22,303 bases of DNA from a virus. The number at the start of each line of letters is the position of its first letter. Positions within the stretch are counted from its first letter, which is position 1. The stretch is taken from the IMG/VR virus record IMGVR_UViG_3300044608_001893, positions 1 to 22,303 of that record; one strand, 5' to 3'. The notes under the pieces were generated by a model. It was not told where the DNA came from, made no database searches, and saw only the letters and a program-made list of their open reading frames with translations. Of the stretch, positions 3,261 to 19,747 are shown one piece after another. A program made the translations under genes and the position numbers.

Positions 3261-3518
3261 ATGAGCTACACTGTCCGCCAGATTGACACCGGTTACATCG
3301 TTGTCGGCCCGTCCGGCGCCCTGCTTCGTGACGGCGGGGCCGGCCAGCAGGGCGAGCCGCTGATCTGGCGCGAGCGCGCGCGTGCCGACGCCAAAGCCGA
3401 ATGGCTTAACACTCCCGAGCGTCACACGCTGAGCAACCGCGAGCGCCGCGAGATGCGGACGGCCATTGGCGCGCGGCACGGCCTGCCCTACGACGTGGCG
3501 CGGGGGCTGCTCGATTGA
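3261..3518 (+). CDS. Small phage protein of unknown function
   Basis: An 85-residue protein. It begins with a beta-rich segment (SYTVRQIDTGYIVVGPSGAL) and ends with a charged helical region (LSNRERREMRTAIGARHG). The ribosome site is GAGGAGAG, about 9 nt upstream. Its TGA stop overlaps the ATG of the following helix-turn-helix gene by one base, so translation is probably coupled. I do not recognise the family. It lies between the regulated promoter and the integrase, in a position where phages often keep regulators or anti-repressors. Confidence 0.7.
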   Translation: MSYTVRQIDTGYIVVGPSGALLRDGGAGQQGEPLIWRERARADAKAEWLNTPERHTLSNRERREMRTAIGARHGLPYDVARGLLD

Positions 3519-3724
3519 TGACTTCCGCTGCCCTTCGCTCCACCTTGGCCTCGCTCGGGTGGAGCACTCGGCATTTGGCCCGCCTGCTCGGCATCCCGGA
3601 GCGCACGCCAGGCAACTGGACGATGGGTCGCTATGCCGTCCCGGCCGATGTCGCCGCGTGGCTTCAGCGCCGGCTTTCCGAGCATCAGCGCATGATGCGT
3701 GACGATCCACCGCCCCAGGCATAG
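3518..3724 (+). CDS. Cro-like helix-turn-helix protein
   Basis: A 68-residue protein containing a compact helix-turn-helix: LGWSTRHLARLLGIPERTPG at residues 13-32, followed by NWTMGRYAVPADVAAWLQRR. The pattern (helix, turn at LGI, recognition helix ending in NW, then VP...VAAWL) is characteristic of small Cro/YdaS-like DNA-binding proteins. The start is the ATG at 3518, which shares its A with the preceding TGA; a TTG three bases earlier is less likely. It lies 8 nt before the integrase gene and could control the palindromic promoter at 2955-3000 or integrase expression. Confidence 0.72.
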   Translation: MTSAALRSTLASLGWSTRHLARLLGIPERTPGNWTMGRYAVPADVAAWLQRRLSEHQRMMRDDPPPQA

Positions 3725-3732
3725 GAGCCGCC

Positions 3733-4908
3733 ATGTCGCGCCACACCATCCGCCATCTGGTCGAGAAGCCCGGCGCCCACGGCCCGCGCTGGTACTGGCA
3801 GCCCAGCGCCCAGCTGCGCGCCGATGGCTGGCGCCCCCAGCGCCTGCTGGCCAACACCTTGGCGGACGCCATGAAGCTGGCCGAGGAACTGAACGCCGAA
3901 GTGGATGCCAAGCGCGCCAGCCTGCCCACCGGCAAGGCCGCGAAGGCCCCGGCCGGCAGCGTGCTGGCCATGATCCAGGCCTACAAGGCCAGCAAGTGGT
4001 GGCCCAAGGGCGAGCGCACCCGCAAGGATTACGGCCACTACCTCGATGCCATCGCCACCTGGGCGGGCGACATGCCGTCGCGCGCCGTCACTCCGCGCGC
4101 GGTCCAGGCCTTCCACACGGCCATGGAAACCCGCACCGAAGGCAAGGGCCGCCACCGCCGCACCATCCACACGCCCGCCCGCGCCGCCGCCGCCGTGCGC
4201 GTGCTGTCGGCCCTGTTCAGTGCCGGCGTGCGCCTGGGCTTCGTCGCCACAAACCCTGCCCTCCGGGCCGGCATCAGCGTGGCACGCCAGCGCGAGCCGG
4301 TGCTGTGGCCCCGCGCGGAGCTGGACCACATGGTGGCCACGGCCGACGCCATGGGCTGGCACAGCCAGGGCACCGCCATGCTGATGAACTACTGGTGCGG
4401 CCAGCGTCAGGCGGACATCCTGCACCTGGCGCCCTGGGCCCTGGAGCACGGCGCCATCGTGCTGAAGCAGCGGAAGCGCGGTCGCAAGGTCAGCCTGCCG
4501 GTGCACCTGGTGCCGGAGCTGGTGACCAGGCTGGAGGTCGATCGCGCCCGCACCACCACCGTGGCCAGCCTCACCCACCTGCTCCTGCACGAAGGCACCG
4601 GCCGCCCCTGGCAGCCCTACACCTTCACTCACACCTTTGCCGAGATCCGCGCCAAGGCCGCCGCCGGCGATCCGGCTCTGAACCTCCCCGCCATGCCCAG
4701 CTGCGCCAGCCTGCGCTGGATGGAACTGCGCCACACGGCCGTCACCGCCCTCAAGGCCGCCGGCCTCGATGCCCTGGCGATCAGCAGCATCACCGGCCAC
4801 ACCGCCCAAAGCGTGCAAGCGATCCTCGATCGCCACTACCTCGTCCGCACCACCGAAGCCGCCGAACACGCGTTCAAGGCCCGGCTGGCGAAGGAAGGCG
4901 GGGCCTAG
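3733..4908 (+). CDS. int: Tyrosine-family site-specific integrase
   Basis: A 391-residue protein of normal phage-integrase length. An N-terminal DNA-binding region (about 1-180, with the core-binding part near 70-170) precedes the catalytic domain. Visible catalytic elements are Arg225 in NYWCGQRQADIL, Arg333 in MELRHTAVTAL, Gly355-His356 in SITGHT and the nucleophile candidate Tyr369 in DRHYLVR. The usual His of the HxxR box (position 330) is Met here. The ATG at 3733 follows AGGAG (3724-3728). The TAG overlaps the GTG start of the HNH gene by one base. The enzyme would recombine the phage attP with the host attB; the tRNA-Thr fragment at 5285-5329 is its probable target. Confidence 0.93.
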   Translation: MSRHTIRHLVEKPGAHGPRWYWQPSAQLRADGWRPQRLLANTLADAMKLAEELNAEVDAKRASLPTGKAAKAPAGSVLAMIQAYKASKWWPKGERTRKDYGHYLDAIATWAGDMPSRAVTPRAVQAFHTAMETRTEGKGRHRRTIHTPARAAAAVRVLSALFSAGVRLGFVATNPALRAGISVARQREPVLWPRAELDHMVATADAMGWHSQGTAMLMNYWCGQRQADILHLAPWALEHGAIVLKQRKRGRKVSLPVHLVPELVTRLEVDRARTTTVASLTHLLLHEGTGRPWQPYTFTHTFAEIRAKAAAGDPALNLPAMPSCASLRWMELRHTAVTALKAAGLDALAISSITGHTAQSVQAILDRHYLVRTTEAAEHAFKARLAKEGGA

Positions 4909-5279
4909 TGCCAATCCGCGCCGAAAACCGCGCGCGCTATCCGGCTGAGTGGCCGATCATTAGCCTGTGGGTGCGCGTTTGCGCCTGCTGGCGCTGCGAA
5001 TGGTGCAACGCTGCCAACGGCAAGCTGCATCCCGTGACAGGCAGCCGTGTGGTTCTGACGGTGGCGCATCTAGATCACCAGCCGGAGAACGTGGCGCCCA
5101 GCAATCTGGCGGCCCTCTGCCAGCGCTGCCACAACCGCTACGATGCGGTGACACGGGCCGCAGGTGTCGCCGCTCGTCGCCGCGCCGCCCTGGCCGTTGA
5201 CGATCTGTTCTCAGCTAGTTGGACAACACCAGTTGGACAGCAGTTGGACAGTCCGGCGAAACCGCCGCTAAGCCTTTGA
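4908..5279 (+). CDS. HNH endonuclease-like protein
   Basis: A 123-residue protein with a GTG start overlapping the integrase stop by one base and preceded by AAGGAAGG. The HNH nuclease signature is clear: a first Cys pair (CEWCNA, residues 35-38), then VLTVAHLDHQPEN with the catalytic-type His pair, then NLAALCQRCHNRYD, providing the second Cys pair and the final His/Asn. Such proteins bind zinc through the two CxxC pairs and nick or cut DNA. Placement beside the integrase and next to attP is unusual but its role there is unknown. The last about 24 residues (SASWTTPVGQQLDSP...) overlap the putative integrase arm repeats and may be dispensable coding. Confidence 0.85.
   Translation: MPIRAENRARYPAEWPIISLWVRVCACWRCEWCNAANGKLHPVTGSRVVLTVAHLDHQPENVAPSNLAALCQRCHNRYDAVTRAAGVAARRRAALAVDDLFSASWTTPVGQQLDSPAKPPLSL
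5217..5250 (+). repeat. Three AGTTGGACA direct repeats, putative integrase arm sites
   Basis: AGTTGGACA occurs at 5217-5225, 5231-5239 and 5242-5250, each followed by A or G. Spacings of 14 and 11 bp place the copies in different reading frames of the HNH gene, so they are not a protein repeat. They lie 35-68 bp from the tRNA-like core. Many tyrosine integrases bind short direct repeats in attP arms through their N-terminal domain. The assignment is inferred from position and repetition. Confidence 0.55.
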
Positions 5280-5284
5280 AAAGA

Positions 5285-5329
5285 TGGTGCCGACGGTCAG
5301 GATTGAACTGACGACCTACTGATTACGAA
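5285..5329 (-). other. Putative attP core: 3' part of a tRNA-Thr(CGT)
   Basis: Read on the - strand, the segment fits the last 45 nt of a tRNA: anticodon loop TTCGTAA (anticodon CGT), 3' anticodon strand TCAGT, variable loop AGGTC, T-stem GTCAG and CTGAC around loop TTCAATC, acceptor strand CGTCGGC, discriminator A, and CCA. The sequence beyond base 5329 cannot pair to complete an anticodon stem, so this is a fragment and not a tRNA gene. A tRNA 3' end immediately beside an integrase gene is the classic attachment-site signature. Confidence 0.8.
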
Positions 5330-5351
5330 TGCGGCAGGAATTGTGCAGCAT

Positions 5352-5382
5352 CAAGGCCCCGTCCAACAAGGGCGGGGCCTTG
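5352..5382 (-). terminator. Strong hairpin, probable late-operon terminator
   Basis: CAAGGCCCCG (5352-5361) pairs perfectly with CGGGGCCTTG (5373-5382). The stem can extend through GUCC/GGGC to about 13 bp around an AACAA loop. It lies 16 nt past the stop of the last - strand gene and between two convergent operons, so it could end transcription from both sides. No long U-run follows on either strand, which lowers confidence that it is intrinsic. Confidence 0.6.
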
Positions 5383-5398
5383 CTGTGTGGTGGCGCGG

Positions 5399-5620
5399 CT
5401 ATCCGCCGGCGCTGTCGCGGTCGGGGAAAATGAAGGCGAACACGGCGGCCACGGCGCCGGCGATCGACATGATGGTAGTGATCTCGGCTTCGGTCAGCGC
5501 CACGCCGGCGCCGCCGAAGGCCAGAAACAGCAGGCCGCTGCGGGTGCTGGTCTGGCGGGCCTGGTCCTCGATGAACTCGGCCCAGCGGGGCTTCTGGCGC
5601 GGCGGCGGGACGGGCGGCAT
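5399..5620 (-). CDS. Holin-like small membrane protein
   Basis: A 73-residue protein with a Pro/Arg-rich start, an amphipathic WAEFIEDQARQ segment and two hydrophobic helices: about 29-43 (GLLFLAFGGAGVAL) and 47-65 (EITTIMSIAGAVAAVFAFIF). They are separated by a short acidic turn, and the tail is charged. Two-helix proteins of this size at the end of a late operon, just after the tail fibre gene, correspond in place to T7 gp17.5 holin. The ATG 5620 has GGAGAG upstream, overlapping the stop of the preceding gene. No endolysin gene is adjacent in the window, so the lysis role is inferred from topology and position. Confidence 0.6.
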   Translation of the reverse strand: MPPVPPPRQKPRWAEFIEDQARQTSTRSGLLFLAFGGAGVALTEAEITTIMSIAGAVAAVFAFIFPDRDSAGG

Positions 5621-5987: not shown

Positions 5988-7637
5988 TCAGTACACCACG
6001 TTGTTGCCGTTGCTGGCGCTGCCGGCGCCGATCACGGTGACGGTGCCGTTGGTGACGTTGCCGGCAATCACATTGAAGTCGGCGGTGCCGCTTTCCAGGA
6101 TCGACACGGCCACGCCGGTGCTGTCGCACAGATTGCCCTGCACCACGCTGCGGGTGCAGCGCAGCCTGATGTCGTTGTTGCTGTTGCCGGCCAGGTGGTT
6201 GCCCATCACGACGTGCTTTTCGCCCTGCAGGTCGATCCCGTACGTGTTGGTGGGGGCGCGGTTGCCCACCAGCTGCAAGGCGCGGCAATTGGCATCGGCC
6301 TGCACGCCGGGCGTGGCCGGGCTGCCGACGCCGGTGGAAAGGTCGCAGGTGGCCACCTTCCAGTTTGCGGCGTTGATGAAGGTCAGCGGCCCGCCGCTGC
6401 AGTTAGTGAAAGCGCAGCCGGTGAAGCTGCCCCAATCCTGGCCGGACACGCCGCCGCCCTTCACCTGGCCGTTGGTGTTGAAGGCGGTCACCCGCACGCC
6501 CTCGTCGGCCGTGCCGCCGCTGCCGGTGATGTAGATCCCGTAGTCGCTGCCGCTCTGGGCATAGCCGCCGTTCACTTCGGTGTCGGTGCAGGTGTCGATG
6601 TGGATCCCGATCGCCGCGGCGGTGCAGCGGATGGTGTCCAGGATGGTGCTGGCACAGAACCGCAGGTTAATCCCGCGCGCCCCGCCAGTGATGTAGAGGT
6701 CTTCCAGCGAAACGAAGCTGCACCGCTTGGCCACGTCGGTGCCGTCCAGGTGCACGGCATACACGCCGGTATAGCCCCCGGCGGAGAAGCCCAGCCGGCG
6801 GATCGTGAACGGGAAGGCGGGCGCGGCGGCCACGTATTTCAGCAGCCGCAGGTTGTTGGCGCCGGCCACCAGCGTCGTGATCAGCGGATCATCGCCGATC
6901 ACGGTGACGTTCGGCTTCAGCGTCACGTCGCTGTTCAGCCTGTAGGTGCCGGGGCGCAGGTACACCACGCCGCTGGTCAGGCTGTTGATGGCGGCCTGCA
7001 GCGCGGCGGCGCAGTCGGCGGTGCCGGTGTTGTCGGCGCCATGGTCGCGCACCAGGTCCACATGCGCCGGCCCGCCCAAGGTCAGGCGGGCGGTGCGCAG
7101 CGCGGCGGCGGCCACCACGGGGACCATGGGGGCGGAAACCGTGGCGGTGCCGCTGGCCGGCAGGCCCACGGTGATGTCGCCGTTGGCGTCGGTGATCACG
7201 TTCATGCTGCGCCGGCTGGCGCGCGCGGGCAGCACGGGCTGGTCGGCCTCGCCATCGGGCACGCGCAGGGTGCGGCGCTGGGCGGCCAGGGCTTCCTGGG
7301 CCAGGGCGGTGCCGCGGTCCACGATGCGCTCCACGGTGGGGCCGGGCAGCGGGTCGGCGTTGTTGAGGCGCACCTGCTGGGTAGGCACGGTGGCGCGCAG
7401 GATGCGCCAGGTCACGCCCACGGCGGGGGCGGCCAGGGCGGTGATGCTGCCGCTGGCGCCGTCGCCCCCGGCCACGGTGTAGTCGGTGCCGCGCGCCAGC
7501 GTGGTCAGCACGCCGGCCGCGCTGGTCTGGTGCACGGCGAGCTCATCCGGCCCGAAGAACACGAAGGGCACCGGAAAGACGGTGCTGGCACCATCGCCGG
7601 CATAGGCAATGCTGGTATCGAGCGAGGGCAAAGTCAT
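5988..7637 (-). CDS. Tailspike with T7-fibre-like N-terminus and pectate-lyase beta-helix
   Basis: A 549-residue receptor-binding protein. Residues 1-130 form a virion-attachment domain of the type heading many podoviral fibres (SIAYAGDGASTVFPVPFVFF, then TDYTVAGG, then TVERIVDRGTALAQEALAAQ). From about 190 a pectate-lyase-type beta-helix begins (VDLVRDHGADNTGTADCAAA, then GVVYLRPGTYRLN) and continues as Asn/Gly-rich coils to the end. Such spikes bind and often cleave capsule or lipopolysaccharide; catalytic residues cannot be assigned by eye. ATG 7637 overlaps the upstream stop by ATGA. Longer open frames reaching 9557 are only extensions into the neighbouring gene. The protein corresponds in position to T7 gp17. 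Confidence 0.86.
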   Translation of the reverse strand: MTLPSLDTSIAYAGDGASTVFPVPFVFFGPDELAVHQTSAAGVLTTLARGTDYTVAGGDGASGSITALAAPAVGVTWRILRATVPTQQVRLNNADPLPGPTVERIVDRGTALAQEALAAQRRTLRVPDGEADQPVLPARASRRSMNVITDANGDITVGLPASGTATVSAPMVPVVAAAALRTARLTLGGPAHVDLVRDHGADNTGTADCAAALQAAINSLTSGVVYLRPGTYRLNSDVTLKPNVTVIGDDPLITTLVAGANNLRLLKYVAAAPAFPFTIRRLGFSAGGYTGVYAVHLDGTDVAKRCSFVSLEDLYITGGARGINLRFCASTILDTIRCTAAAIGIHIDTCTDTEVNGGYAQSGSDYGIYITGSGGTADEGVRVTAFNTNGQVKGGGVSGQDWGSFTGCAFTNCSGGPLTFINAANWKVATCDLSTGVGSPATPGVQADANCRALQLVGNRAPTNTYGIDLQGEKHVVMGNHLAGNSNNDIRLRCTRSVVQGNLCDSTGVAVSILESGTADFNVIAGNVTNGTVTVIGAGSASNGNNVVY

Positions 7638-10030
7638 CGGACGGCCTCCGTGGGTCGCAGCCAAAAGGTCTGGTTGTTGTCGCGCTTCACGCGCTGCTCC
7701 ATCCGCCGCAGGTAGCCGGGGTTCGCCCATTCCTGCAGGCGGTAGATCACGGCGTAGTCTAGGCCGGCGCGGGCGTAGAACAGGTTGACGAACGGGGTGT
7801 GGCCCACGCCCAGCCGGATCGCCTCGGCGGCGGCGTTGCCCTCGCCGCGCGCGGCGCTCAGCAGCTTCTGCACGCCCTCGATGCTGCCGGCGGTGGGGCC
7901 GGCCAGCGTGCTGATGAACCCGCCGCCCACGCGGTTGGCCTCGCCGAACAGGAAGTCGCCATAGATGCCGAGCCCGCCGCCCTGCACCATGGCGGCGGCC
8001 ACCAGCTTGCCGTAGCTGGCGGCGTCGTCGGGCTCGCGCGGGTTGCGGCCCTTCGCTAGGTCCTTCAGCGTCATGGAGAGATAGCCCAGCGCCGTGGTGG
8101 CGGCGATCAGGTGGGCCAGCCCGCCCGCGTCGATGCCGTCGCGCCGGAACTCGCGGCCGAGGCTGCGGGTCATGTAGGTGATGGTGAAGGTCTTGAACTG
8201 CATCAGCAGGCGCACCAGCTCGCCGGCCGGCGTGCCGGCCTGGGTGCCCAGCGAGGCCATGGCGCGCACGCCGGCGGTGGTCTCTGTCATGCCCTCGCGC
8301 ACCTGGTCGGCGTAGTAGGCGGCGAGCTTGCGGGCGCTGTCGGCATCGGCCACGGCCTCGGGCAGCAGGTAGGCGGTGCCGTCGGCCGTGCGCTGCGGGG
8401 CGGCGCGGATGGCGTCCCACTCCGCGCCCTCGATGGAATAGCGGCGCAGCGTGGCTTGCAGGCGGGGCGGCAGGTCGGGAAAGGCACGGGCGGCGCTGTC
8501 GGCCAGGTTGCTGGCCAGCATCAGGCCGCTGGTGCGCTTCATGGCGTCGTTCCAGTAGGCCAGGCCGTTGAACTTGTAGAAGACGTTGGTCGCCCGGCTG
8601 ATGCGGCCGGACAGCGCCTCGTCGGTGCCCAGCCGGGCGGCCACGTCGCCCAGCAGCGTGTCGATGCCCACGCCCAGCGCGCGCGCCACCTGCTGGGTCT
8701 CGGGGCCCTTGGGGATCAGCGCCGTCATCTCGCGGGCATAGGCGTGGAACAGCGGGATGCCGTTGTGCCTCAACATCGCCGCGTTCACGGCGAGGTCGGG
8801 CAGGGAGGACAGCACCACGCCGCCCAGCTTTGCCAGCTGCTGCAGGGCGCGCACGGTGGCGCCGGCCTGGGCCAGCGTGGCGCTGCCGGGGATGGCGGCG
8901 CGGCCGTCCAGCACTTCCAGCACGCGCTGGGGGAAGCTGCTGGCCAGCGCCTCGGTGGCCTTGAAGTCGCCGCGGTCGCGGGCGGCGGTGCGCAGGCGAT
9001 CGATCCAGCCGTCCAGCATGGCCTGGGGGTTGGTGCCGAACTGGCGCATCAGGGTCACGTCCCGCGCGCCTTTTTCCAGGCTTGCGGTGATGCTGTCGGC
9101 CACCGCGCCGCGGCCGAACTGCACGTTGTAGTCGAACCAGGCGTCGGCATCCTTGAAGATCAGCACGCGCTCCTGGCTGACTTTCTTGGCGAGGTTGGCG
9201 GGGCCGGAGAAGCCGGCCAGCGTGTCGCTGGTGCTGGTGCCGTGCACGCCGCTGGACAGGTTCAGCCAGACGTTGCGCAGGAACTGCTCGGGGTCGGGCG
9301 CATCCCGGAAGGTGATCGGGTCCAGGCGCGGCAGGATGGTGTCGCGCCACGCGGCATAGGCGGCATCGCTGCCATCGCCACGGATCTTGAACAGGTCGTG
9401 GCTCTGGCGGGTGATGTAATGGTCCTGCCTGCCGATGAAGGCGCCGGCATCGTTCAGCTGCTGGCGCAGGGCCTCCTGGTATTTGCCCATGATCCTGGCC
9501 GCCTCGGCCGCGTGACGGTTGCCGGTGGCGGGCAGCGTCTGGTCCCGCGCACGCCACAGCTCGCGGGCCAGGTCGCGCTCGAACGCCTCGTCGCGGGTGC
9601 GCAGGGCGCGCAGCAGGCCGGCGGCTTCCAGGTCGTGCTGGAGGCCGCCCAGAAGCTGGTTCCGCAGGCCTTGCCAGTTTGCGTCGACGCTGTCGGCCAG
9701 GCCGCGATCGGTGCCGCGCTGCACGCCGGTGAGGCTGGCCAGCACGCTGTCATACTCGCGGCCGGCGATCACGCGCGCGTCCAGCCGGCGGCGGGCCAGC
9801 AGGTTGATCGCCTCCTGCTTGCGCTCGATCGCCGCGGCCATGCGGATCTCGCCGCCCAGCTCGGCGCCGGCCCGCTGCGCGGCGGACAGGCTGTCCATGC
9901 CCTGCGCCTGGTAGTGGCGGGTGCGGTTTTGTGCCCGCGTGAAGATGCGGTTCTGCTCGGCCTCGGACAGCTCGCGGCCGGCGGCGGTGTTGGCGGCGGC
10001 AAGACAGGCCTGGAAATTGCTGCCGCTCAT
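7634..10030 (-). CDS. Large internal virion (ejection) protein
   Basis: A 798-residue, mainly helical protein with no enzymatic motif that I recognise. The conserved-looking C-terminus starts near residue 693 (FLFGEANRVGGGFISTLAGP) and runs through HTPFVNLFYARAGLDY to LQEWANPGYLRRMEQR. I associate this ending with large internal core proteins of T7-like podoviruses that infect alpha- and gammaproteobacteria. Hydrophobic stretches such as AHLIAATTALGYLSMTL could contact membrane after ejection. ATG 10030 overlaps the preceding stop by ATGA; an upstream in-frame ATG at 10048 is less likely. It lies directly before the tailspike, in the position of T7 gp16, and would travel into the host envelope during DNA delivery. 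Confidence 0.75.
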   Translation of the reverse strand: MSGSNFQACLAAANTAAGRELSEAEQNRIFTRAQNRTRHYQAQGMDSLSAAQRAGAELGGEIRMAAAIERKQEAINLLARRRLDARVIAGREYDSVLASLTGVQRGTDRGLADSVDANWQGLRNQLLGGLQHDLEAAGLLRALRTRDEAFERDLARELWRARDQTLPATGNRHAAEAARIMGKYQEALRQQLNDAGAFIGRQDHYITRQSHDLFKIRGDGSDAAYAAWRDTILPRLDPITFRDAPDPEQFLRNVWLNLSSGVHGTSTSDTLAGFSGPANLAKKVSQERVLIFKDADAWFDYNVQFGRGAVADSITASLEKGARDVTLMRQFGTNPQAMLDGWIDRLRTAARDRGDFKATEALASSFPQRVLEVLDGRAAIPGSATLAQAGATVRALQQLAKLGGVVLSSLPDLAVNAAMLRHNGIPLFHAYAREMTALIPKGPETQQVARALGVGIDTLLGDVAARLGTDEALSGRISRATNVFYKFNGLAYWNDAMKRTSGLMLASNLADSAARAFPDLPPRLQATLRRYSIEGAEWDAIRAAPQRTADGTAYLLPEAVADADSARKLAAYYADQVREGMTETTAGVRAMASLGTQAGTPAGELVRLLMQFKTFTITYMTRSLGREFRRDGIDAGGLAHLIAATTALGYLSMTLKDLAKGRNPREPDDAASYGKLVAAAMVQGGGLGIYGDFLFGEANRVGGGFISTLAGPTAGSIEGVQKLLSAARGEGNAAAEAIRLGVGHTPFVNLFYARAGLDYAVIYRLQEWANPGYLRRMEQRVKRDNNQTFWLRPTEAVR

Positions 10031-12360
10031 CGCACACCCACCAGACACAGCGCCGCCTGTTCGGTGGCGCGGGCTTCGCTGTCGGCCAGGGCCACGTTGT
10101 CGCGCAGGCGGGCCAGCGTGGCCTGCTCGTCCGGCGCCAGCGGCAGCGCCTCCAGCTGCTGGGCGATGCGGTCGGCGTCGGCGGTGAGCGCCGCCAGCTC
10201 GGGGTCGATGGCAGCGGCGCCTCGCGCTGCGCTGCCGGCGCGGGCGGGCGCCGCCTCCACCATGCGCGCCACCTCGCGGCTGGCCTGCACGTCCTCCGGC
10301 GCGGCGCGCGGGGCGGCGGCGAGGTCGTCCAGCACGCGGGCGGTGGCGGCCTCGGGGTCGATGTGGCGCATGGCGGCGCGCAGCAGGTCGGCGGCGCCGG
10401 CGGGCGGGGTGCCGAACAGGTCCGGGCCGGGCTGCACCTGCAGCGCCTGGTCGCCGTAGCGGCCCAGCAGCTCGGCCAGCGGCTCGCGGCCCAGCGCGCG
10501 GTTCATCGCCTCGTCGCGGTGCATCAGGCGCAGCAGCGCCATGGTGGCCGGGCCGGGCGGGGCGGCGAAGGCATCGGCCTGGGCCAGCAGCTCGGCCACG
10601 CTCTTGCCCTCGCGCCGCGCGCGCTCCACCAGCTGCACCGCCTCGCCCAGCGCGGCGGTGATGTCCAGGTCCGGCGGGATTTCGCCGCGGGCGGCGGCGG
10701 CGCGCATGCGGCCCCAGGGGCCGGCGGTGTCGGCCAGGGCGCCGGCGATGCCCTTCAGGTTGTCGGCCTCGCCGTTCAGCAGCTTGTCCAGCAGCGGGCC
10801 GAGCGCATCGCCGTAGCTGTGGGCCAGGATCGCCTGGCGCAGGCGCTGCTCGCCCGCGGCGGACAGGCGGCCATCGGCCAGCAGGTTGCCGCGCTCCTCC
10901 GCCGGCAGCATGGCCAGGAAGCTGCGCGTGAAGTCCCGGTTCTGGCTGCTGGTGAGCTGGCCGGGCATCAGCTGGTCGATGGCGCGGCCGGCGCGGTCGG
11001 CATCGGCGCGGGCCTGCTCGGCGGCGCCCATGGCCAGGTTCGGCCGCTCGTTGGCACCGCGCGCGAAGGCAGCGGCCTGCTCGGGTGTGAAGTCGGACAC
11101 GCGCCGGCCCACCAGCACCGGGCGCTCGATGCCGGTCAGGTCGTAGCCCTGCGCTTCCAGGAACGCGCGATAGGCCTGGGCACGGTGGCCAAGCTCGGCG
11201 GTGTCATACACGCGCTGCAGCGCCGCGATGCGGCCGTTGCCGCTTTCCACCACCCCGCGCGCGTCCACGAGGGGCGCGCCAGCACCGGCTTCCGGGCTTG
11301 GGGCCAGACGTTCCGGCTGAAGGTTCGCGGCAATGGCACCGATCTGGTCCTGGCTTCCTGCGGTGGAACGGTCGCGCGGCTGCAGCCCCTCCGCGTGCGG
11401 GTAGGCGGGGTTCACGGTGCCGTCGGCCATGTGGCTGGGGATCAGGGCGGACAGGTCCACCACCTCCGGCCGCGCTTCCACGCGCAGGCCGCCGGGGGTG
11501 AAGGCGGCATAGGCGCCGGCCTGCGCCTCGCGCGCCACCTCGCGGTAGCTGGTGGCGCCAGGCAGGTTCACCAGCGGCGCCACGTCCACCGGCCGGCCCT
11601 CGGCCACGGCGGCGACGGCGCCGCGCAGCATGCCCTCGCGGATCGGCGCCGGCATGTTGCCCATGGCGGCCTCGATCGGCGTGCGGCGGCCCCGTATGGC
11701 ATCGGCCGCGGCGCCGCCCAGCGTGTGCAGCCCGCCGCCCAGCACGCCGCCGAAGGCGATGGCGCCCAGCGTGTCGGTCATGCTGCGGTCGTTGAACTCG
11801 GCGCGGCTGAGGGCATATTCGGCCGGCTCCAGGATGGCCATGCCGGCCGCACCGCTGACGGCGCCGGCGGCGGCGCGGCCGGCGGTGATGCTGGTGGTGC
11901 CCATCAGCTGCATCAACCGCGCCTCGCGCACGAAGGGGATCAGCGCGGCGCCGAGGTTCACCGGGTCCAGGATGGCGGTGCCGAAGGTAAGCGCCAGGCG
12001 CGCGGCGCCGGAGGTGGCCAGCGTGTCGGGCCGGCGGGCGATGATCGCCTGGCGCCGCTGCTCCGCCTCGCGCGCCTCGCGCAGCGCGCTGGCCACGCCC
12101 TCCGTCACCGGCCGGTCGAAGCTGAGCACGCCGGGGATGCCGTAGGTGGCGTTGGCTTCTTCTGCCGCCAGCGTGCGGCCGGGCTCGGCGGTGCCGCGGC
12201 TGAACCAGTCCCACAGGCGCGGGCCGATGCTGCCGGCCCATGCGCTGCCGGCGGTGGCGGCCAGCACCTCGCCGGTGCTGGCCTCGATGCTGTCAAGCCC
12301 GCGCGCCTGCACCGCCTGCGCGGCGGCGGGGCTGCCCAGCCAGAGGCCCGTGCCGCTCAT
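10027..12360 (-). CDS. Large internal virion protein with ParB/DdrB-like domain
   Basis: A 777-residue protein, second of three giant internal proteins. Residues about 303-445 match the DdrB/ParB-like domain pattern known from phage and conjugative-element polyvalent proteins: LQPRDRSTAGSQDQIGAIA, then APLVDARGVVESGNGRIAAL with the ParB-type G-N-G-R box at 374-377, then YRAFLEAQGYDL and PVLVGRR. The N-terminal 300 residues include a Gly/Ala-rich hydrophobic segment (198-216) that may be membrane-active. The remaining C-terminal third is helical, with coiled-coil-like Ala/Arg/Glu content. The start is ATG 12360 from the ATGA overlap; open frame continuing upstream to 13152 is non-genic. As an ejected protein it may act on DNA inside the host cell, which is inference. 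Confidence 0.78.
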   Translation of the reverse strand: MSGTGLWLGSPAAAQAVQARGLDSIEASTGEVLAATAGSAWAGSIGPRLWDWFSRGTAEPGRTLAAEEANATYGIPGVLSFDRPVTEGVASALREAREAEQRRQAIIARRPDTLATSGAARLALTFGTAILDPVNLGAALIPFVREARLMQLMGTTSITAGRAAAGAVSGAAGMAILEPAEYALSRAEFNDRSMTDTLGAIAFGGVLGGGLHTLGGAAADAIRGRRTPIEAAMGNMPAPIREGMLRGAVAAVAEGRPVDVAPLVNLPGATSYREVAREAQAGAYAAFTPGGLRVEARPEVVDLSALIPSHMADGTVNPAYPHAEGLQPRDRSTAGSQDQIGAIAANLQPERLAPSPEAGAGAPLVDARGVVESGNGRIAALQRVYDTAELGHRAQAYRAFLEAQGYDLTGIERPVLVGRRVSDFTPEQAAAFARGANERPNLAMGAAEQARADADRAGRAIDQLMPGQLTSSQNRDFTRSFLAMLPAEERGNLLADGRLSAAGEQRLRQAILAHSYGDALGPLLDKLLNGEADNLKGIAGALADTAGPWGRMRAAAARGEIPPDLDITAALGEAVQLVERARREGKSVAELLAQADAFAAPPGPATMALLRLMHRDEAMNRALGREPLAELLGRYGDQALQVQPGPDLFGTPPAGAADLLRAAMRHIDPEAATARVLDDLAAAPRAAPEDVQASREVARMVEAAPARAGSAARGAAAIDPELAALTADADRIAQQLEALPLAPDEQATLARLRDNVALADSEARATEQAALCLVGVR

Positions 12361-15002
12361 CGGTCCTGCCTCAGCCGCGGGCCGCGGGCGCCGGCGGGAT
12401 CGGGCTGTTCCTCTGCGGTGGCCGCAGGATCGTCGCGCGGGGGCAGGCGGTTGAACAGCACTTCGATCGGCGCGCCGCCGGGCCGGGTCAGGTTCACGAT
12501 GCTGCCGCCGGGCGTGCGGGCCACCAGCACGGCGCCGGAGGCATCGGCGTTGTTGATCCAGAACCCGCGGCGCGCTGCGTCCAGCGTGGCCGGGCGGCGT
12601 TCGTTGGGCGTGGCGGCGGGGCGGGTAGGGTCCGGCAGGGCGGCAACGTCGGTCAGTTGCAGGCCGCTGCGCACGCGGTCCAGCGCCGTCTCGATCTCGC
12701 CGGCGCGGCCCTTCGGCACCAGCATGGTGGGCGTGCGGCCGAACCAGCCGGTGCCGTCGTCGCCGGCGGTGTCCCAGCGCGCGCCGATCACGTCCTGATA
12801 GGCGCGCTCGGCGGCCTCCGGCGCCTTCATGCCGCGCCATGCGTGATACAGCGCCAGCGTGTTCACGGCCTGGCGCATGGTGGCGAACAGGCCGTCGCCG
12901 CCGGGGTGGTAGCGGGTGGCCTCGCGCAGCGGCTGCAGCGCGCCGTCCACCTCGCCGTCGAACCCCTTCAGCACGTCGGGCGGCACCAGCTTCTTCATGG
13001 CTTCCGGCCCGCCCTTTTCGGCCTGGAACACCAGGGCGCGCTGCAACAGGGCGCGGCCCTCGGCCTGCGCCGGGGCGGTCATGGCGGCGATCGCCTGCCA
13101 TTCCCAGCCGATCTTGCCGTGCTGCACCAGCTCGCCATAGGCGCGGTTCCACAGCTCGGGGCCGAAGCGCTCGGCGAGCGCGGCCAGCGTGCCGGCCATG
13201 TCCTGCTTCTCGGGCCCGGTGGTGCGCAGGGTGGCGGCGAGTTGCTGCACCTGGCCGTCGTTCAGGATGCGCTGGCGCCAGGCCGGCACACCCATGCGCG
13301 TTTGGGCGGCCAGGCTGGCCGTGGCGATTTCCGGCATGGGCGCGTCGCGCTGGATCAGCGCCTGCACCTCGGGCGATTGCAGCGCCACCTGGGCGGGATC
13401 GTCGGCCAGCGCGCGGCGCTTGGCGGCCACCGCCTGGTCGAACCGGGCCAGCACCTGCTGGCGCTCCCCGGCCAGGCGCGGGTCGGCGGCGTCGCCGGCC
13501 AGCTGCGCGCGCAACGCCACCTCGTCGGCCGGGCTGGCGAACTGCACGGCGCGGTAGGCATCGCCGGCGCTGCGTTCCAGCGTCAGCGTGTCGATCGCGC
13601 GCTGGGCGGCATCGGGCGGCAGCAGCGCGCGGATCTGGCCTTCCGGGATGGTGGCGCCGGTGTTGCCCTGGCCGTAGCTGGCGGAGAGATCGGCCAGCTG
13701 GCGGCCCAGCACGGCGCGGGCCTGCTCGCTGCCGGCCTGCTCGTTGTTCAGCATCTGCGCCACCAGGGACTGGCCCTGCAGCTGCACGTGCAGCGGCTCG
13801 TCGGCCAGGCGCTGCTGCACGTCGGCCAGCAGCGCGCCCTTCTGCGCCTCGCTGCGTTCGGCACCGGCCGGGGTCAGGCGGTTCAGCACCTGCGCCACGT
13901 AGCGCGACACGCTCATGCCGTTGCCGTCGCGGCGGTCCTCTTTCCAGGGCGTCGGGCTGCCGGGCGGGGCAATGTTGCCGGGGCCGGAGAAGTAGCCCAC
14001 GGCGATGCGGGCGGGATCGCCGCCGGCGCGGGCGGCCAGGTCGTCGATGATGCGCCGGCCGACGGCTTCGTTGTCGGCCGGGTTGTCGATGTTCTCGCCG
14101 GGGCGGGCATACTGCGCCCAGGTGCCGGGCATGATCTGCATGCGGCCGCGCGCGCCATCCACCGACACTTGGCCGTCGCGCCCGCCGCTCTCCTGCATCA
14201 GGATGGCCTGGTAGATGTCGCCGGCGGTGCCGCGCGCGCCCATGGTGGCGGTGGCGGCGCCCTGGGCGCGGCTGCGCTCCAGCGGGGCGCGCAGGCTGGT
14301 GGTCAGCTGCGCCACCGTGCCGGCGTCCATCTCGCCCTTGTAGCGCTCCAGCAGCGCCTGCGCGCCCTGCGGGTCCGCGGCGGCGCGCAGCGTCACGGCC
14401 TGGGCGATGGCGCGGCTGAACAACGGCGTGGCATCGGCCTGGGTGTAGAGCCCGGCGGCGACGTTGCCGGCGATGCCGGCCTTGATCGCCTGCACGTGCT
14501 GCAGCAGCTGCGGCTCGTCGCGGGCGGCGGCGATCTGCTGCGCCTGGGTGCCCAGCGTGTCGGCGAACTGGCCGCGCAAATTGCCGATGTGGCGCTGGCT
14601 GGCCGCGCTGCTCACCTGGCGGTAGGCGGTGGGGATCAGCTGGGTGTCCAGCGAGCGCGCCACCAGCCCGGCCACGGCGGGGTCCAGCCCCTCGATCGCG
14701 GCGGCGCGGAACTCGGCGGCTTTCTCGCGGAAACGCTGCGGCACGCTGGCCGGGTCGGGGTCGGCATCGAAGCCGCGCTGCATGTCGGCGATGTCCATGG
14801 ACAGCGCAGCCACGCGGCCGGCGGCATCGTTCACCGCGCGCGCCTGGTCGGCCGCGGCCCAGAGGTTCATGAACTGGCCGGACACCTGGGCCAGGTTTTG
14901 CGCCAGCGTGTCGGACACGAGGCTGGCCGCGCGCGGATCCGGCCCGCGGGCGGTCAGCGGGGCCACGGGGGCGTTGTAGCCTTCGCGGCTGGTGTAGCTC
15001 AT
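12357..15002 (-). CDS. Internal virion protein with lytic transglycosylase domain
   Basis: An 881-residue protein. Residues about 259-375 form a soluble-lytic-transglycosylase-type domain. The sequence IYQAILMQESGG carries the catalytic Glu271, GARGRMQIMPGTWAQYA follows, and GYFSGPGNI matches the family's A-Y-N-A-G-P-G box. Flanking regions are long helical segments without recognised enzymes. T7 gp16 carries a comparable domain at its N-terminus, where it opens peptidoglycan for the ejection tube; here it is internal, after about 250 helical residues. ATG 15002 lies behind a GAGGCGCAAGGA leader and the gene ends by ATGA overlap with the next. Role: local cell-wall digestion during infection. 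Confidence 0.87.
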   Translation of the reverse strand: MSYTSREGYNAPVAPLTARGPDPRAASLVSDTLAQNLAQVSGQFMNLWAAADQARAVNDAAGRVAALSMDIADMQRGFDADPDPASVPQRFREKAAEFRAAAIEGLDPAVAGLVARSLDTQLIPTAYRQVSSAASQRHIGNLRGQFADTLGTQAQQIAAARDEPQLLQHVQAIKAGIAGNVAAGLYTQADATPLFSRAIAQAVTLRAAADPQGAQALLERYKGEMDAGTVAQLTTSLRAPLERSRAQGAATATMGARGTAGDIYQAILMQESGGRDGQVSVDGARGRMQIMPGTWAQYARPGENIDNPADNEAVGRRIIDDLAARAGGDPARIAVGYFSGPGNIAPPGSPTPWKEDRRDGNGMSVSRYVAQVLNRLTPAGAERSEAQKGALLADVQQRLADEPLHVQLQGQSLVAQMLNNEQAGSEQARAVLGRQLADLSASYGQGNTGATIPEGQIRALLPPDAAQRAIDTLTLERSAGDAYRAVQFASPADEVALRAQLAGDAADPRLAGERQQVLARFDQAVAAKRRALADDPAQVALQSPEVQALIQRDAPMPEIATASLAAQTRMGVPAWRQRILNDGQVQQLAATLRTTGPEKQDMAGTLAALAERFGPELWNRAYGELVQHGKIGWEWQAIAAMTAPAQAEGRALLQRALVFQAEKGGPEAMKKLVPPDVLKGFDGEVDGALQPLREATRYHPGGDGLFATMRQAVNTLALYHAWRGMKAPEAAERAYQDVIGARWDTAGDDGTGWFGRTPTMLVPKGRAGEIETALDRVRSGLQLTDVAALPDPTRPAATPNERRPATLDAARRGFWINNADASGAVLVARTPGGSIVNLTRPGGAPIEVLFNRLPPRDDPAATAEEQPDPAGARGPRLRQDR

Positions 15003-15005
15003 GTC

Positions 15006-15043
15006 CTTGCGCCTCGCGCGCGCGCTGCCGGCGTCATGCCATC
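15006..15043 (-). promoter_or_regulatory. Repeated translation leader, copy upstream of the transglycosylase gene
   Basis: On the - strand this stretch reads GATGGCA...CGCCGGCAGC...GCGCGAGGCGCAAG and ends 3 nt before the ATG at 15002. Nearly the same block precedes the tail gene at 18398. It contains the GAGG ribosome site. The match also covers the end of the preceding gene, so it is a duplicated segment rather than a chance ribosome site. Function beyond initiation is unknown. Confidence 0.5.
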
Positions 15044-15585
15044 CCCCAGCCGGCGCCCACGCCGCCGGGCGCCCGCATCCGCAGCTGCGTGGTGCCGTAT
15101 TGCGCCAGCCCGCCCAGCAGCGTGGTGCCGCCGCGGATCAGCCCGGCGGTGCTGGCGGCATCGGCGGCGCTGTCGTTGAAGCCGGCCTGAGCCTCCAGCC
15201 CGCCCGCCTGGGCCAGCGCACCCTGCGCCGCGCTGCGGCCTTTCCAGCGCTGGATGGCGGCATCCAGCGCGCCTTCCGCCGCCATGTCGCCCATCAGGTC
15301 CAGCGGGCTGCCGTAGGTCGGATCGCCGCCGCTGCTGCCAGCCAGGTTGAACGCGCTGGCCACCCGGCGGCGCGTGCCGGCCTCCGTGCGCGCGGCCTCG
15401 GCTTCGGCCTGGTTCAGCTGCACCGCGGCGTTGATGCGCGTCTGCTGGGCGTTGCGGCGATCGGCTTCCGCCTGCTGCTCCAGCGCGGCGGCCTGCTGCT
15501 GGCCGCCCATCACGGCGTTGATGGTGCTGATGCCGGCGCTGGCCGCGGCCAGGTAGGGCGCGGCAAGGATCAGGGTTTCAGCCAC
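15034..15585 (-). CDS. T7 gp14-like internal virion protein
   Basis: A 183-residue protein with a hydrophobic N-terminus (LILAAPYLAAASAGISTINA, residues 4-23). A long Ala/Gln/Glu coiled coil (about 28-85, QQAAALEQQAEADRRNAQQT) and a Gly/Ser-rich, flexible second half follow (NLAGSSGGDPTYGSPLD). This layout is shared with T7 gp14, the internal protein that inserts in the outer membrane during ejection. Gene order also agrees, as it follows the gp13-like gene and precedes the giant internal proteins. It overlaps the gp13-like gene by 8 nt, which fixes the start at ATG 15585. Confidence 0.78.
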   Translation of the reverse strand: MAETLILAAPYLAAASAGISTINAVMGGQQQAAALEQQAEADRRNAQQTRINAAVQLNQAEAEAARTEAGTRRRVASAFNLAGSSGGDPTYGSPLDLMGDMAAEGALDAAIQRWKGRSAAQGALAQAGGLEAQAGFNDSAADAASTAGLIRGGTTLLGGLAQYGTTQLRMRAPGGVGAGWGMA

Positions 15586-16030
15586 CGGCCTGTGCTCCCA
15601 TGCGCTGGTTCACCTTGGCCCAGCGGTCGTAGTCGGCGCCGTCGTGGCCGTAGCCCGGCATGGGCCCCTCCGGCCGGAAGCCCAGCAGCGCCAGCCAGCG
15701 CGCACCCGGTTCCCAGCCGGTCAGCGCCTCGGCCTCGATGCGGTGCAGCCGCAGCTCGCGCTGGGCTTCGGCCAGTTGGCGGCGCACGCGCGCGGTCAGC
15801 CATGGCCAGGCGCGCGCGGGCAGGTCGGCGCCGATCAGGCACCAGGTGCCGGCGCGGCCGGGCCAGTGGATCACCAGCCCGGCACAGGCCAGCACCTGGC
15901 CGTCGTGCAGCGCGGTCCAGCACGGGCCGGCGTCCGGCAGGCTGGCGGCGGCCTGGCGCATCGGGGCGGCGATCGGCGCGCGGGTGCGCATGCGCTCCAG
16001 GTCCAGGGGCTCGAAGGGGCGCACGATCAT
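15578..16030 (-). CDS. T7 gp13-like GNAT-fold protein
   Basis: A 150-residue protein resembling the GNAT-fold phage family represented by T7 gp13 (DUF2833). A basic segment LTARVRRQLAEAQREL precedes LHRIEAEALTGWEPGARWLA and LLGFRPEGPMPGYGHDGADY, matching the last strand-helix-strand of GNAT proteins. The acetyl-CoA-binding Q/RxxGxG/A loop is not obvious, so enzymatic activity is doubtful. In T7 the counterpart is needed for assembly of the internal core. The start overlaps the tail B stop by ATGA and the gene is followed by the gp14-like gene, as in T7. Confidence 0.8.
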   Translation of the reverse strand: MIVRPFEPLDLERMRTRAPIAAPMRQAAASLPDAGPCWTALHDGQVLACAGLVIHWPGRAGTWCLIGADLPARAWPWLTARVRRQLAEAQRELRLHRIEAEALTGWEPGARWLALLGFRPEGPMPGYGHDGADYDRWAKVNQRMGAQAGG

Positions 16031-17787
16031 TGCGCCTCCACCTCCTGAATTACGGCCAGGATCGTGAAGGGCAGCGGCTCGTCGTGCAGGATCTCCAGCT
16101 GGCCGCTGCCCCAGCGGCTGCGCGGCGTCACGTCGTAGTCGCCGCTGAACAGCGGCACCGCCTGCCCCATGGCATGCACCTGCAGCCGGTAGGCGAGGCT
16201 TTCATGCGGCATGCCAGGCCCGGCCACGCTGCCGCCGCCGCTGTGCAGCAGGCGCAGCGTGGCGCCCACCACGCGCTTCTTGCTGCCCTGGCTGGTGGCC
16301 GCGCCCTGCACCGGCACCTCCGGCTCCAGCGTCAGCACGCGGGCGCGGTAGGCCAGGCCCACATGCACCTTGCGCGCCGCCGTGCCGGTGATCGGCACGC
16401 TGCCGGCCGTCACCACCTGGCTGTCGCGCACGCTGCCATCGGCCACGATCGCCACCGTCTGCCCTTCCAGGTGGTCCAGCCCGGCCACGGTGTTGACGGT
16501 CACGGCGCTGTCGAGCGTCAGGCCGGCATCCACCATGAAGGCATCGGCCGGGGGCTCGGCCTCGCCGTCGAACGGGTCGCGCATCCATTCCACCGTGCGG
16601 GTGGTGGTGCCGCCGAAGGTCCGCGCCACCGACACGTACAGGTCGCTGCTGGTGCCGGCCGGATCGGGCACGGCTGCGATGCTTTCCACCAGCCCGTCGG
16701 CGATCTCCAGCAGGGTCCAGGCGCGCATCTTCTGGTCGGCATCGAAGGTCAGCGCGGCGATCCTGCCGTCGGGCCGCAGGCCGTAGAACGTGCCGTGCGG
16801 CAGGTCGGCATAGGCCGTCTCGATGAAGCCGCCGCCGGTGATGTGGTCGGCCAGGGCCGACAGGTCCTGCGTGGTGAAGCGGTCGATGCCGAAATCGTAT
16901 TCCAGCTGGCGCAGCTTCCGCCCGCCGCGCTGCGGAAACAGGATCAGGCCGGAAACGCGCTGCGGCATGCAGCCGGCATCGCTGCCGCGGTCGCCCTGCC
17001 GGTCGGCGCTGATGTTGCCCGGGGCCAGCGCGCCGTTGCGGTTCAGCGGCGTGATCAGGAATTCGCCGCTGGCGGTGCCGGCCGCCAGCCCGCGCGGCGA
17101 GGGCAGCAGCCAGCGCGCGGTGTTCACCTGGTCGTCGTCCAGCGCGTAGCTGATGGCGTTGGTGTCCAGCACGGTGCCGTCCGGCTCGGTGGGGGCGAAG
17201 CTCTCGAAGTCGCCGGCCTCGCTGGCCCATGCGGTCTGCGGGCGGGCCGCGCTGCCGAACATCCACAGCCGGTTCTTGTAGAAGGTGCCGGCGATTGGCC
17301 AGCCGCGCGCGTCGTTCCACTCGCCCATGCGCCAGCGCAGGCTGCCATAGGTGGCCGCGAACGGGCCGCGCGGGTGGATCGTCACGTTCACCACCGTGCT
17401 GCTGGTGAAGCCGGTGATGGTGCACCACCCCCATACATGCCGGCCGGGGCCGAGGTATTTCAGCACGGCCGAGCCGTCCAGCACGGTGGGGTTGATCTCG
17501 TTCGGCGCGGCCAGGTCGTAATCCGGCGTGGTGCCGGCCAGGCTGGCGGCCGCGGTGGTGCCGGCGCGGGTCACGCGATACAGGCGCGGCACCTGGTTGT
17601 ATTCCGAGATGAGGATGCGCCCGGCGGTGTAGGCGGTGGCGGCGGCGCGCACCGTGTCGCAGCGGTGCAGGATGCCGATCAGCCGGCCCACGTCGCTGGC
17701 GGTGAACAGCGCGGCGCTGGCCGTGACGGTGGCGGCGCCGGAGCCATGCGCCACGCTGGACGCCAAGGTGATGCTGGTGTCGGTCAT
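16027..17787 (-). CDS. Tail tubular protein B-like, C-terminal part (separate gene)
   Basis: A 586-residue protein corresponding to the larger part of gp12-like nozzle proteins. The N-terminus (ATVTASAALFTASDVGRLIG, residues 19-38) and the segment at 154-197 (MGEWNDARGWPIAGTFYKNR, then LWMFGSAARPQTAWAS and GDFESF) are hallmark stretches of this family. DDDQVNTARWLLPSPRGLAA and SGEFLITPLN follow. In homologues I know, these features sit in one polypeptide of roughly 800 residues together with the domain encoded here by the gene at 17784-18398. The two genes overlap by ATGA. The product would form the distal tail tube that carries the tailspikes. Confidence 0.82.
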   Translation of the reverse strand: MTDTSITLASSVAHGSGAATVTASAALFTASDVGRLIGILHRCDTVRAAATAYTAGRILISEYNQVPRLYRVTRAGTTAAASLAGTTPDYDLAAPNEINPTVLDGSAVLKYLGPGRHVWGWCTITGFTSSTVVNVTIHPRGPFAATYGSLRWRMGEWNDARGWPIAGTFYKNRLWMFGSAARPQTAWASEAGDFESFAPTEPDGTVLDTNAISYALDDDQVNTARWLLPSPRGLAAGTASGEFLITPLNRNGALAPGNISADRQGDRGSDAGCMPQRVSGLILFPQRGGRKLRQLEYDFGIDRFTTQDLSALADHITGGGFIETAYADLPHGTFYGLRPDGRIAALTFDADQKMRAWTLLEIADGLVESIAAVPDPAGTSSDLYVSVARTFGGTTTRTVEWMRDPFDGEAEPPADAFMVDAGLTLDSAVTVNTVAGLDHLEGQTVAIVADGSVRDSQVVTAGSVPITGTAARKVHVGLAYRARVLTLEPEVPVQGAATSQGSKKRVVGATLRLLHSGGGSVAGPGMPHESLAYRLQVHAMGQAVPLFSGDYDVTPRSRWGSGQLEILHDEPLPFTILAVIQEVEAQ

Positions 17788-18398
17788 GAGGCGCCTTCAC
17801 CGCCGAAGCCGGGATCGCGGCCGTCGCCCACGCCGCTGCCGGTGGCCTCCTCCGCCGCCGTGCCGGTCTCGGTGCCGGAACTGGTGGCGCTGGGGGCGGC
17901 GGCGCCCACGTCGCCGGTGTTCTCCGGCCCGAAGGGGCCGTTCTCGAACGCCACCGGGGCGATGCTGAACACGCCCGCGGCGCTGCGGGTGATCTTGCGG
18001 GTCTGGTAGCTGCCGTGGAACACGTAGGCGACATCGGCCGATTGCGCGAACTTCAGCTCCCGCAAATGCGCGAGCCCGTAGGGGGTGGCCACTTCCTGCG
18101 GCACGCCGCTGGCCTGCACCTGGCCGCGGTTGCGATAGACGCGGAAATAGAGGTCGCCGAACTCCAGCACATAGGCCACCACGGACGAGACCACGAAGGG
18201 CACCAGCCGCACGCGGCCGGCTTTCGCGGTGGTGACGTGGTAGGTGCCGGAACGCTTTGTGGCGCCACCCTGCGGCAGCACCACCATGTTGGTCAGGTCC
18301 TCCGCGCCCGCGGCATATTGCTGCAGGTCGATGCGCCCGCGCATGCGCCGGCTGAGCATGCCGGCCGCGAAGCTCGGCTGAATGATCGTCACCGCCAT
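17784..18398 (-). CDS. Tail tubular protein B-like, N-terminal part (separate gene)
   Basis: A 204-residue protein starting MAVTIIQPSFAAGMLSRRMR, the typical opening of gp12-like tail nozzle proteins. LTNMVVLPQGGATKRSGTYH, LVPFVVSSVVAYVLEFGDLY and LRELKFAQSADVAYVFHGSY follow, all conserved features of the family's first domain. The protein ends in a Gly/Ser/Thr/Glu-rich linker (about 150-204) and stops at the point where homologues continue into the domain encoded by the next gene. Fusion to the following frame would need a -1 shift, and I see no slippery heptamer near the overlap. A split gene with coupled translation is my preferred reading; a sequencing error is the alternative. Confidence 0.82.
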   Translation of the reverse strand: MAVTIIQPSFAAGMLSRRMRGRIDLQQYAAGAEDLTNMVVLPQGGATKRSGTYHVTTAKAGRVRLVPFVVSSVVAYVLEFGDLYFRVYRNRGQVQASGVPQEVATPYGLAHLRELKFAQSADVAYVFHGSYQTRKITRSAAGVFSIAPVAFENGPFGPENTGDVGAAAPSATSSGTETGTAAEEATGSGVGDGRDPGFGGEGAS

Positions 18399-18400
18399 TA

Positions 18401-18436
18401 CTTGCGCCTCGCGCTTGGCTGCCGGCGTGCCATCAG
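18401..18436 (-). promoter_or_regulatory. Repeated translation leader, copy upstream of the tail B gene
   Basis: On the - strand it reads TGATGGCACGCCGGCAGC...GCGCGAGGCGCAAG and lies 2 nt before the ATG at 18398. It matches the leader at 15006-15043 over about 30 of 36 positions, including the GAGG ribosome site and part of the upstream gene's stop region. Confidence 0.5.
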
Positions 18437-19008
18437 AACCGCGCGTTCACGAGAATGTCAGCCGGCGCATACTGGGGCTTGGGCGTGCCCTCGGCGGCAT
18501 CGGTCTGGCGGGCGAGGCGGCGCGCCTCCACCAGCTCGGCGGCGATCTGCGCGCGCTGCTGCGCGCTGGCGGACAGCGGGATGCACAACCGTTCCGCCAG
18601 CATCGCGGCCACCAGGCGCGCGAACAGCGGCGCCCAGTGGCCGGTATCCGCATGGCGCTGGATGTACTGCACCTGCAAGGGCGCGGCCATGTTGCACAGG
18701 ATCAGGTTGCCCTCGCGTTCCCAGGGCTCGTGCGGGTCGGCGCTGGCCACGGCCAGGATGCGCAGGCAGTCGGCCGGCACCTGGAACTGCCCGGTCCATT
18801 CGAAGGCCGGCGCGGTGGGGCTGGCGGGCAGGCTGGCGCGGCGCTTGGCGAAATTCCACGGATGCAGCGCCAGCGCCTCGTCGCGCACCTGCGGCAGGAA
18901 CTCCGCGCACAGCCTGGCCTCCTTGCTGGTGTCCGTGTCCAGGCTGACGATGCGCTCGTCGCCCACCAGGGACAGGGCCAGATTGGCAATTTCCGTCAGG
19001 CTGGGCAT
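18433..19008 (-). CDS. Tail tubular protein A-like (T7 gp11-like) adaptor
   Basis: A 191-residue protein of the gp11-like family. It opens LTEIANLALSLVGDERIVSL, then has SKEARLCAEFLPQVRDEALA and LHPWNFAKRRASL, the usual N-terminal helices and HPWNFA box. A beta-rich middle (WTGQFQVPADCLRILAV) and helical end (LVAAMLAERLCIPLSASAQQ) complete it. These proteins form the ring joining portal to tail nozzle. ATG 19008 has GGAGG 9 nt upstream. The length is normal for the family, and the following gene is the gp12-like one, as in T7. Confidence 0.88.
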   Translation of the reverse strand: MPSLTEIANLALSLVGDERIVSLDTDTSKEARLCAEFLPQVRDEALALHPWNFAKRRASLPASPTAPAFEWTGQFQVPADCLRILAVASADPHEPWEREGNLILCNMAAPLQVQYIQRHADTGHWAPLFARLVAAMLAERLCIPLSASAQQRAQIAAELVEARRLARQTDAAEGTPKPQYAPADILVNARF

Positions 19009-19036
19009 TCAGTGTTGCCTCCGGCGGGCGCCTTGC

Positions 19037-19148
19037 GGGGCTGCGCCCCTGCCGGCGTGCTCGCCACCTCTGAAGGAAGCGCCGCCCGCGCGTCCCAAGG
19101 CCATCGCGCGGGCGGCAGACACGGGGGAAGGAGGAACATTCCCCCGTG
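19037..19148 (-). terminator. Cluster of three hairpins between cement and tail genes
   Basis: The 143-nt gap holds three stem-loops in transcription order. ACGGGGGAA (19121-19129) pairs with TTCCCCCGT (19139-19147), with one further C-G pair, starting 4 nt past the cement stop. GCCGCCCGCGCG (19081-19092) pairs with CGCGCGGGCGGC (19105-19116), a perfect 12-bp stem. GGGGC (19037-19041) pairs with GCCCC (19045-19049). There are no U-runs, so partial termination or mRNA protection is more likely than a strong intrinsic terminator. Confidence 0.5.
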
Positions 19149-19151
19149 GCG

Positions 19152-19649: not shown

Positions 19650-19705
19650 GGGGAGCTCCTGTGTCTGGCCTGGCGCGGATGGGCGGCACCGGCGGAAAGG
19701 GAAGC

Positions 19706-19732
19706 GGGGAACCCGCCGGCGGCGGGCTCCCC
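19706..19732 (-). terminator. Hairpin after the major capsid gene
   Basis: GGGGA-A-CCCGCC (19706-19717) pairs with GGCGGG-C-TCCCC (19721-19732): an 11-bp stem with one mismatch and a 3-nt loop, 15 nt past the capsid stop on the - strand. The place matches that of T7 terminator T-phi after gene 10. No U-tract follows, so it may give partial termination or stabilise the capsid transcript. Confidence 0.5.
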
Positions 19733-19747
19733 GGGGTCAGGCGCCGA

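Follow-up and report, generated by a model that had tools for sequence, protein, structure and literature searches.

A tRNA-Thr(CGT) 3' end next to the integrase module as the attP core of a temperate short-tailed phage with the gene order of the unintegrated form

Positions 5285–5330 of the window (the whole 22,303-base stretch that was analysed) can be identified with high confidence as the attP core of a temperate short-tailed phage that uses a tRNA-Thr(CGT) gene as its attB and is represented here in the unintegrated form. Read on the minus strand, the 45-mer at 5285–5329 is identical to the 3' portion of a tRNA-Thr(CGT) gene that begins in the anticodon loop and runs through CCA, and it matches 23 complete tRNA-Thr(cgt) genes exactly (see below). 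T5330 is also common to phage and host, giving a shared block of 46 bp (5285–5330) that reaches as far as the anticodon loop's 5' edge; from there the phage reads TGCGG where the tRNA gene reads TCAGT (T5330 being the first letter of each), and the remainder of the tRNA gene beyond the core in the host is TCAGTTGCTC. ARAGORN called no whole tRNA in the window, as would be expected of a 3' tRNA fragment, and since the 5' half of the tRNA is absent from it, an Rfam scan of 5000–5500 returned only a sub-threshold chance match (Plastid-ycf2). Such a copy of a tRNA end beside the integrase lets a phage insert into the tRNA gene without breaking the gene.

To define the host target, the 45-mer was searched exactly against 84,980 species genomes, and 31 matching places were found. 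At 23 of the 31, ARAGORN called a complete tRNA-Thr(cgt) gene whose 3' part was the 45-mer; at seven (L009, L014, L022, L027, L029, L032 and L033) the 45-mer was a displaced fragment and the remainder of the tRNA was missing, and L018 was cut by a contig end. By sequence comparison, the 45-base identity to tRNA-Thr(CGT) genes is far above chance. The original prediction had held that the core specifies the host attB and that bacterial genomes should contain a complete tRNA-Thr(CGT) gene ending in it; the 23 complete genes bear this out, and the predicted host attB is a tRNA-Thr(CGT) gene ending in exactly the 45 bases. The matching records that are named below phylum level were mostly Acetobacteraceae/Rhodospirillales MAGs, the others being labelled only Proteobacteria. 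For a metagenomic phage fragment, the host group is thereby firmly predicted: Acetobacteraceae and their close relatives. The phage is very probably temperate, and an exact attP/attB pair is now in hand.

The core stands between the integrase and HNH genes on its left and the last gene of the minus-strand late module on its right, as had been claimed. The tyrosine integrase gene (3733–4908, plus strand, 391 aa; phrog_1, 4.5e-20; PF00589, a weak match at 1.6e-5) has its 3' end towards attP, and R225, K248, R333, H356 and Y369 are invariant in the family alignment. At residue 330, the usual position of the second-box catalytic His, the clade has Met or Ala (M330 in the window, within M-E-L-R-H-T). 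The small HNH endonuclease gene (4908–5279, plus strand; phrog_1571, 2e-23) is mostly missing from viral contig L002, whose integrase is 98% identical to that of the window: positions 4909–5216, about 308 bases, correspond to 21 bases there, pointing to recent gain or loss next to attP. Further left on the plus strand are a small HTH protein gene, an excisionase-like candidate (2658–2930; phrog_66, 6.2e-8), and a small repressor-like regulator gene (3515–3724; phrog_4779, 2.5e-6). The last late gene (5399–5620, minus strand), by eye a possible small holin, is an ORF conserved in L002, L003 and L006, and its product gave no family match. The late module proper (5988–22154, minus strand) encodes a tail fibre, internal virion proteins, an SLT lysozyme protein, tail tube proteins, a capsid protein and a protease/scaffold-like protein (phrog_1640, 684, 418, 308, 376, 394, 3437 and 458, and PF19821 for the capsid). 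The window, which is the whole IMG/VR record, contains neither a recognised terminase or portal gene nor a terminal repeat and is therefore a fragment. The absence of a second copy of the 45-mer from both strands of its 22,303 bases is accordingly weak evidence for attP.

The case for the unintegrated form rests on relatives. The order integrase (plus strand), tRNA 3' fragment, late genes (minus strand) was found in nine related viral contigs (L002, L003, L085, L087, L090, L092, L095, L097 and L100), the last six being further removed than the first three. The contig of L003 (G002, 34,133 bases) has an exact 127-base terminal repeat and closes into a circle. It contains a single core in a search within 3 mismatches, and the join of its ends falls between two genes for internal virion proteins, which are adjacent in the window. 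A second contig (G405) closes into a circle through an exact 123-base terminal repeat. In both, attP lies inside a circular map, and integrase–core–late genes is the unintegrated order. The claim that the window shows attP within a phage genome and not an integrated prophage is thus upheld by a circular relative that shares this order and has only one core; for the window contig itself we infer a circular or virion/replicating form. Viral contig L006 (1–64) has only 19 bases ahead of the core and continues into late genes; integrated and free forms occurring together may explain this assembly break at the core.

The integrated counterpart was observed in G358. The order in this prophage is ftsK, a 185-base repeat, late genes (minus strand), integrase (plus strand), the repeat again and a complete tRNA-Lys(CTT). 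The repeat copies are 32.8 kb apart, and their last 45 bases are the tRNA-Lys 3' end, the same tRNA portion as the window core; the integrase, 57% identical to that of the window, lies 0.8 kb from the 185-base repeat. Genes on the host side, read by eye from translations, are ftsK with recF, dnaN and gyrB beyond. The flanks of the core, which were expected to part to opposite ends after integration, are so placed in G358, and this is the rearrangement expected after integration, seen in a relative. At its far border (attR; L067 12888–13072, G358:C6), a 140-base integrase-arm stretch, 98% like the prophage's own arm, lies to the left of the core and is best explained as a scar left when one tRNA-Lys site was used before. 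An integrase-arm/core/late-gene junction alone is therefore no proof of the free form.

This scar bears on the main alternative, that the contig covers, within a chromosome, the point where two tandem prophages meet, or where a prophage meets the remnant of an older one, the core being integrated. Consistent with it, in G004 about 7 kb that is missing in related genomes lies between a host acyltransferase gene and the core at L032, and the tRNA is a busy site visited by several element types. However, the window has over 5 kb of early genes and an intact integrase to the left of the core, and it would be odd for tandem prophages to recur in each of nine related contigs with the same order, two of them circular. 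We consider a tandem junction quite improbable. The original prediction had left the excised form and the tandem junction side by side; the free order of the circular relatives favours the former, and the latter keeps a small weight.

A relative nearer than G358 is also integrated. L035, in an Acetobacteraceae MAG labelled Asaia bogorensis (G004), has a complete tRNA-Thr(CGT) with the exact core and a similar arm, and then, up to the contig end, the 28 C-terminal residues of an integrase (78.6% identity across these 28 aa); it is an attL. The same genome has one more core, L032, at another contig end, so that the bounded integrated form is represented there in part only, by L035 and L032. The MAGs carrying the 45-mer yielded no prophage when searched by the internal virion protein, and the MAG of L035 is without late genes. 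A protein search of genome contigs with the window integrase alone gave no match; an integrase family search through G004 was successful. G394 has an integrase 55% identical to that of the window beside a complete tRNA-Thr(CGT), and was rejected as a bounded prophage, its second core copy (L084) not being next to recognisable late genes of the phage.

That the tRNA fragment is a mere passenger, captured by chance or left as an old scar, with the true att site elsewhere, is a reading to which we give almost no credence: although recombination at the tRNA core is predicted from sequence, across the clade the fragment ends the integrase module and varies with the tRNA used, and the fragment-bounded prophage of G358 and the attL at L035 in effect refute it.

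The attP core identified here is flanked by motifs whose layout resembles that of phage lambda, in which attP consists of arm repeats, an IHF site between arms and core, and the core. Three direct copies of AGTTGGACA, putative arm-type integrase sites, occur on the plus strand at 5217–5225, 5231–5239 and 5242–5250; no other exact copies exist in the window, and 200 Markov-random windows gave none. GTTGGA repeats about 40–95 bases from the core were also found in L002, L003, L085, L086, L087, G358, G071 and G394, thus in several, not all, of the relatives with a tRNA-Thr or tRNA-Lys target. An IHF-like site, TAAGCCTTTGAAA (5269–5281, minus strand), differs at one position from WATCAANNNNTTR and is separated from the core by 3 bases. 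When no more than one mismatch was allowed, such a site stood within the 45 bases preceding the core, at a distance of 3–5 bases, in 16 of the 21 att sites of the integrase clade, where shuffles gave 0.46 expected and 4 at maximum, the 21 sites being related and not independent. At host loci with a complete tRNA the IHF-like motif was present in many and absent from others; we take it to come from the elements and to persist at sites that are occupied or scarred. To the right of the core, TCCAAC (5362–5367, minus strand), the inverted GTTGGA, is a possible P' arm site in the loop of a strongly folding hairpin at about 5354–5386 (z = −6.1), although a terminator scan recognised none by its own rule. 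Inverted GTTGGA 32–56 bases to the right of the core was also found in L002, L003 and L085. The arm and IHF motifs are statistically significant and suggest a putative lambda-type layout around the core, derived from sequence motifs; lambda itself has another integrase, and its site is not a tRNA gene.

In the mechanism we propose, the phage tyrosine integrase would recombine the attP core with the identical 3' part of the host tRNA-Thr(CGT) gene. Strand exchange would take place in the anticodon-loop part, TTACGAA, as at a class 'A' tRNA site, although the exact crossover bases are inferred. The phage copy would replace the lost 3' end and so keep the tRNA functional, and the far border, beside the late genes, would be marked by the displaced tRNA fragment. 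By analogy with phage lambda, the N-terminal domain of the integrase may bind the AGTTGGACA arm sites, IHF may bend the DNA at 5269–5281, and the catalytic domain would act at the core.

Anticodon-centred tRNA sites were described as a class in Islander, where thousands of islands were counted (PMC4383910). Elements of its class A, like the window, have an attP with a 3' tRNA fragment that covers everything from the anticodon loop onwards, and when they integrate, as here, the tRNA is made whole again and a displaced fragment remains. The tRNA 3' match and the adjacent tyrosine integrase are both present in the window, and the integrated form is present in G358; there is no difference in principle, the system here having Thr CGT and its own host group and phage lineage. 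In late-module order and proteins the phage resembles temperate podoviruses of the epsilon15/phiV10/Ab31 type (Uetakevirus; Pseudomonas phage vB_PaeP_Tr60_Ab31), and the fragment carries the homologous set of capsid, tail and internal virion proteins in the order of that type. The module order is that of Pseudomonas phage Flu_PA14_4, and internal virion protein identity ranged from 28% (phiV10) to 36.5% (Ab31, Flu_PA14_4) over about 98%, the Ab31 kind being nearer and epsilon15/phiV10 more distant. In Uetakevirus ZX5, phiV10 and epsilon15, a 17-bp attP core is located at guaA (PMC9782041), whereas the core here is that of a tRNA-Thr; tblastn with the window integrase gave no phiV10 or epsilon15 match, and the Uetakevirus integrase/guaA combination was not found. 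The podovirus Kapi1, whose contig is circular, inserts at argW and restores the 3' tRNA end in doing so (PMC8787464). In Kapi1, Sf6, HK620 and KplE1 (argW), int adjoins attP, as here; unlike the window phage, these are P22-like and have a tRNA-Arg target, a 17-bp core and attP between int and xis. The basic phenomenon is textbook; what is new is the phage lineage of Acetobacteraceae-type bacteria, the host prediction and the retargeting series, with the putative AGTTGGACA arm sites, the IHF-like site and Thr/Lys target switching within the clade as additions.

We asked how stable the tRNA target has been among these integrases. In relatives that use tRNA-Lys the core ends at the same anticodon-loop point. 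The supported branches of an 18-integrase tree require two or more changes of tRNA label, L096 (Thr) sitting within a tight clade of Lys users. Bootstrap trees gave three to four label changes, and the labels were only moderately more clustered than shuffled ones. We lean slightly towards the view that the clade switched several times between tRNA-Thr(CGT), tRNA-Lys(CTT) and perhaps tRNA-Phe, keeping the IHF/core layout and exchanging only the 45-bp core. The sequence CTGATTA at the anticodon arm is common to the Thr and Lys cores, and a switch would likely be easy because the two tRNAs share it. L089 was rejected as an attP, its tRNA-Lys fragment being far from the integrase and without an IHF-like site, and a pattern search of L099 returned no Thr, Lys or Phe fragment. 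Comparison across the clade makes moves of tyrosine integrases between tRNA targets testable.

Some further observations concern the window and its tRNA target. Near the left end of the window, two tandem paralogous genes (86–961 and 973–1938) share an N-terminal part followed by long, variable Ala/Tyr/Asp-rich C-terminal repeats, and had no Pfam or NCBIfam match. The phrog_376 tail protein is split into two genes overlapping at 17784–17787 (ATGA); its halves are in different frames in G003 as well and in the same frame in G002. Finally, the exact 45-mer also bounds other elements of about 6.7 kb (L029 1338–8000 with L011) and about 8.8 kb (L033 with L013), the former small and satellite-like at the same tRNA, with an Arm-DNA-bind_3 integrase and a Prim-Pol/AAA protein.
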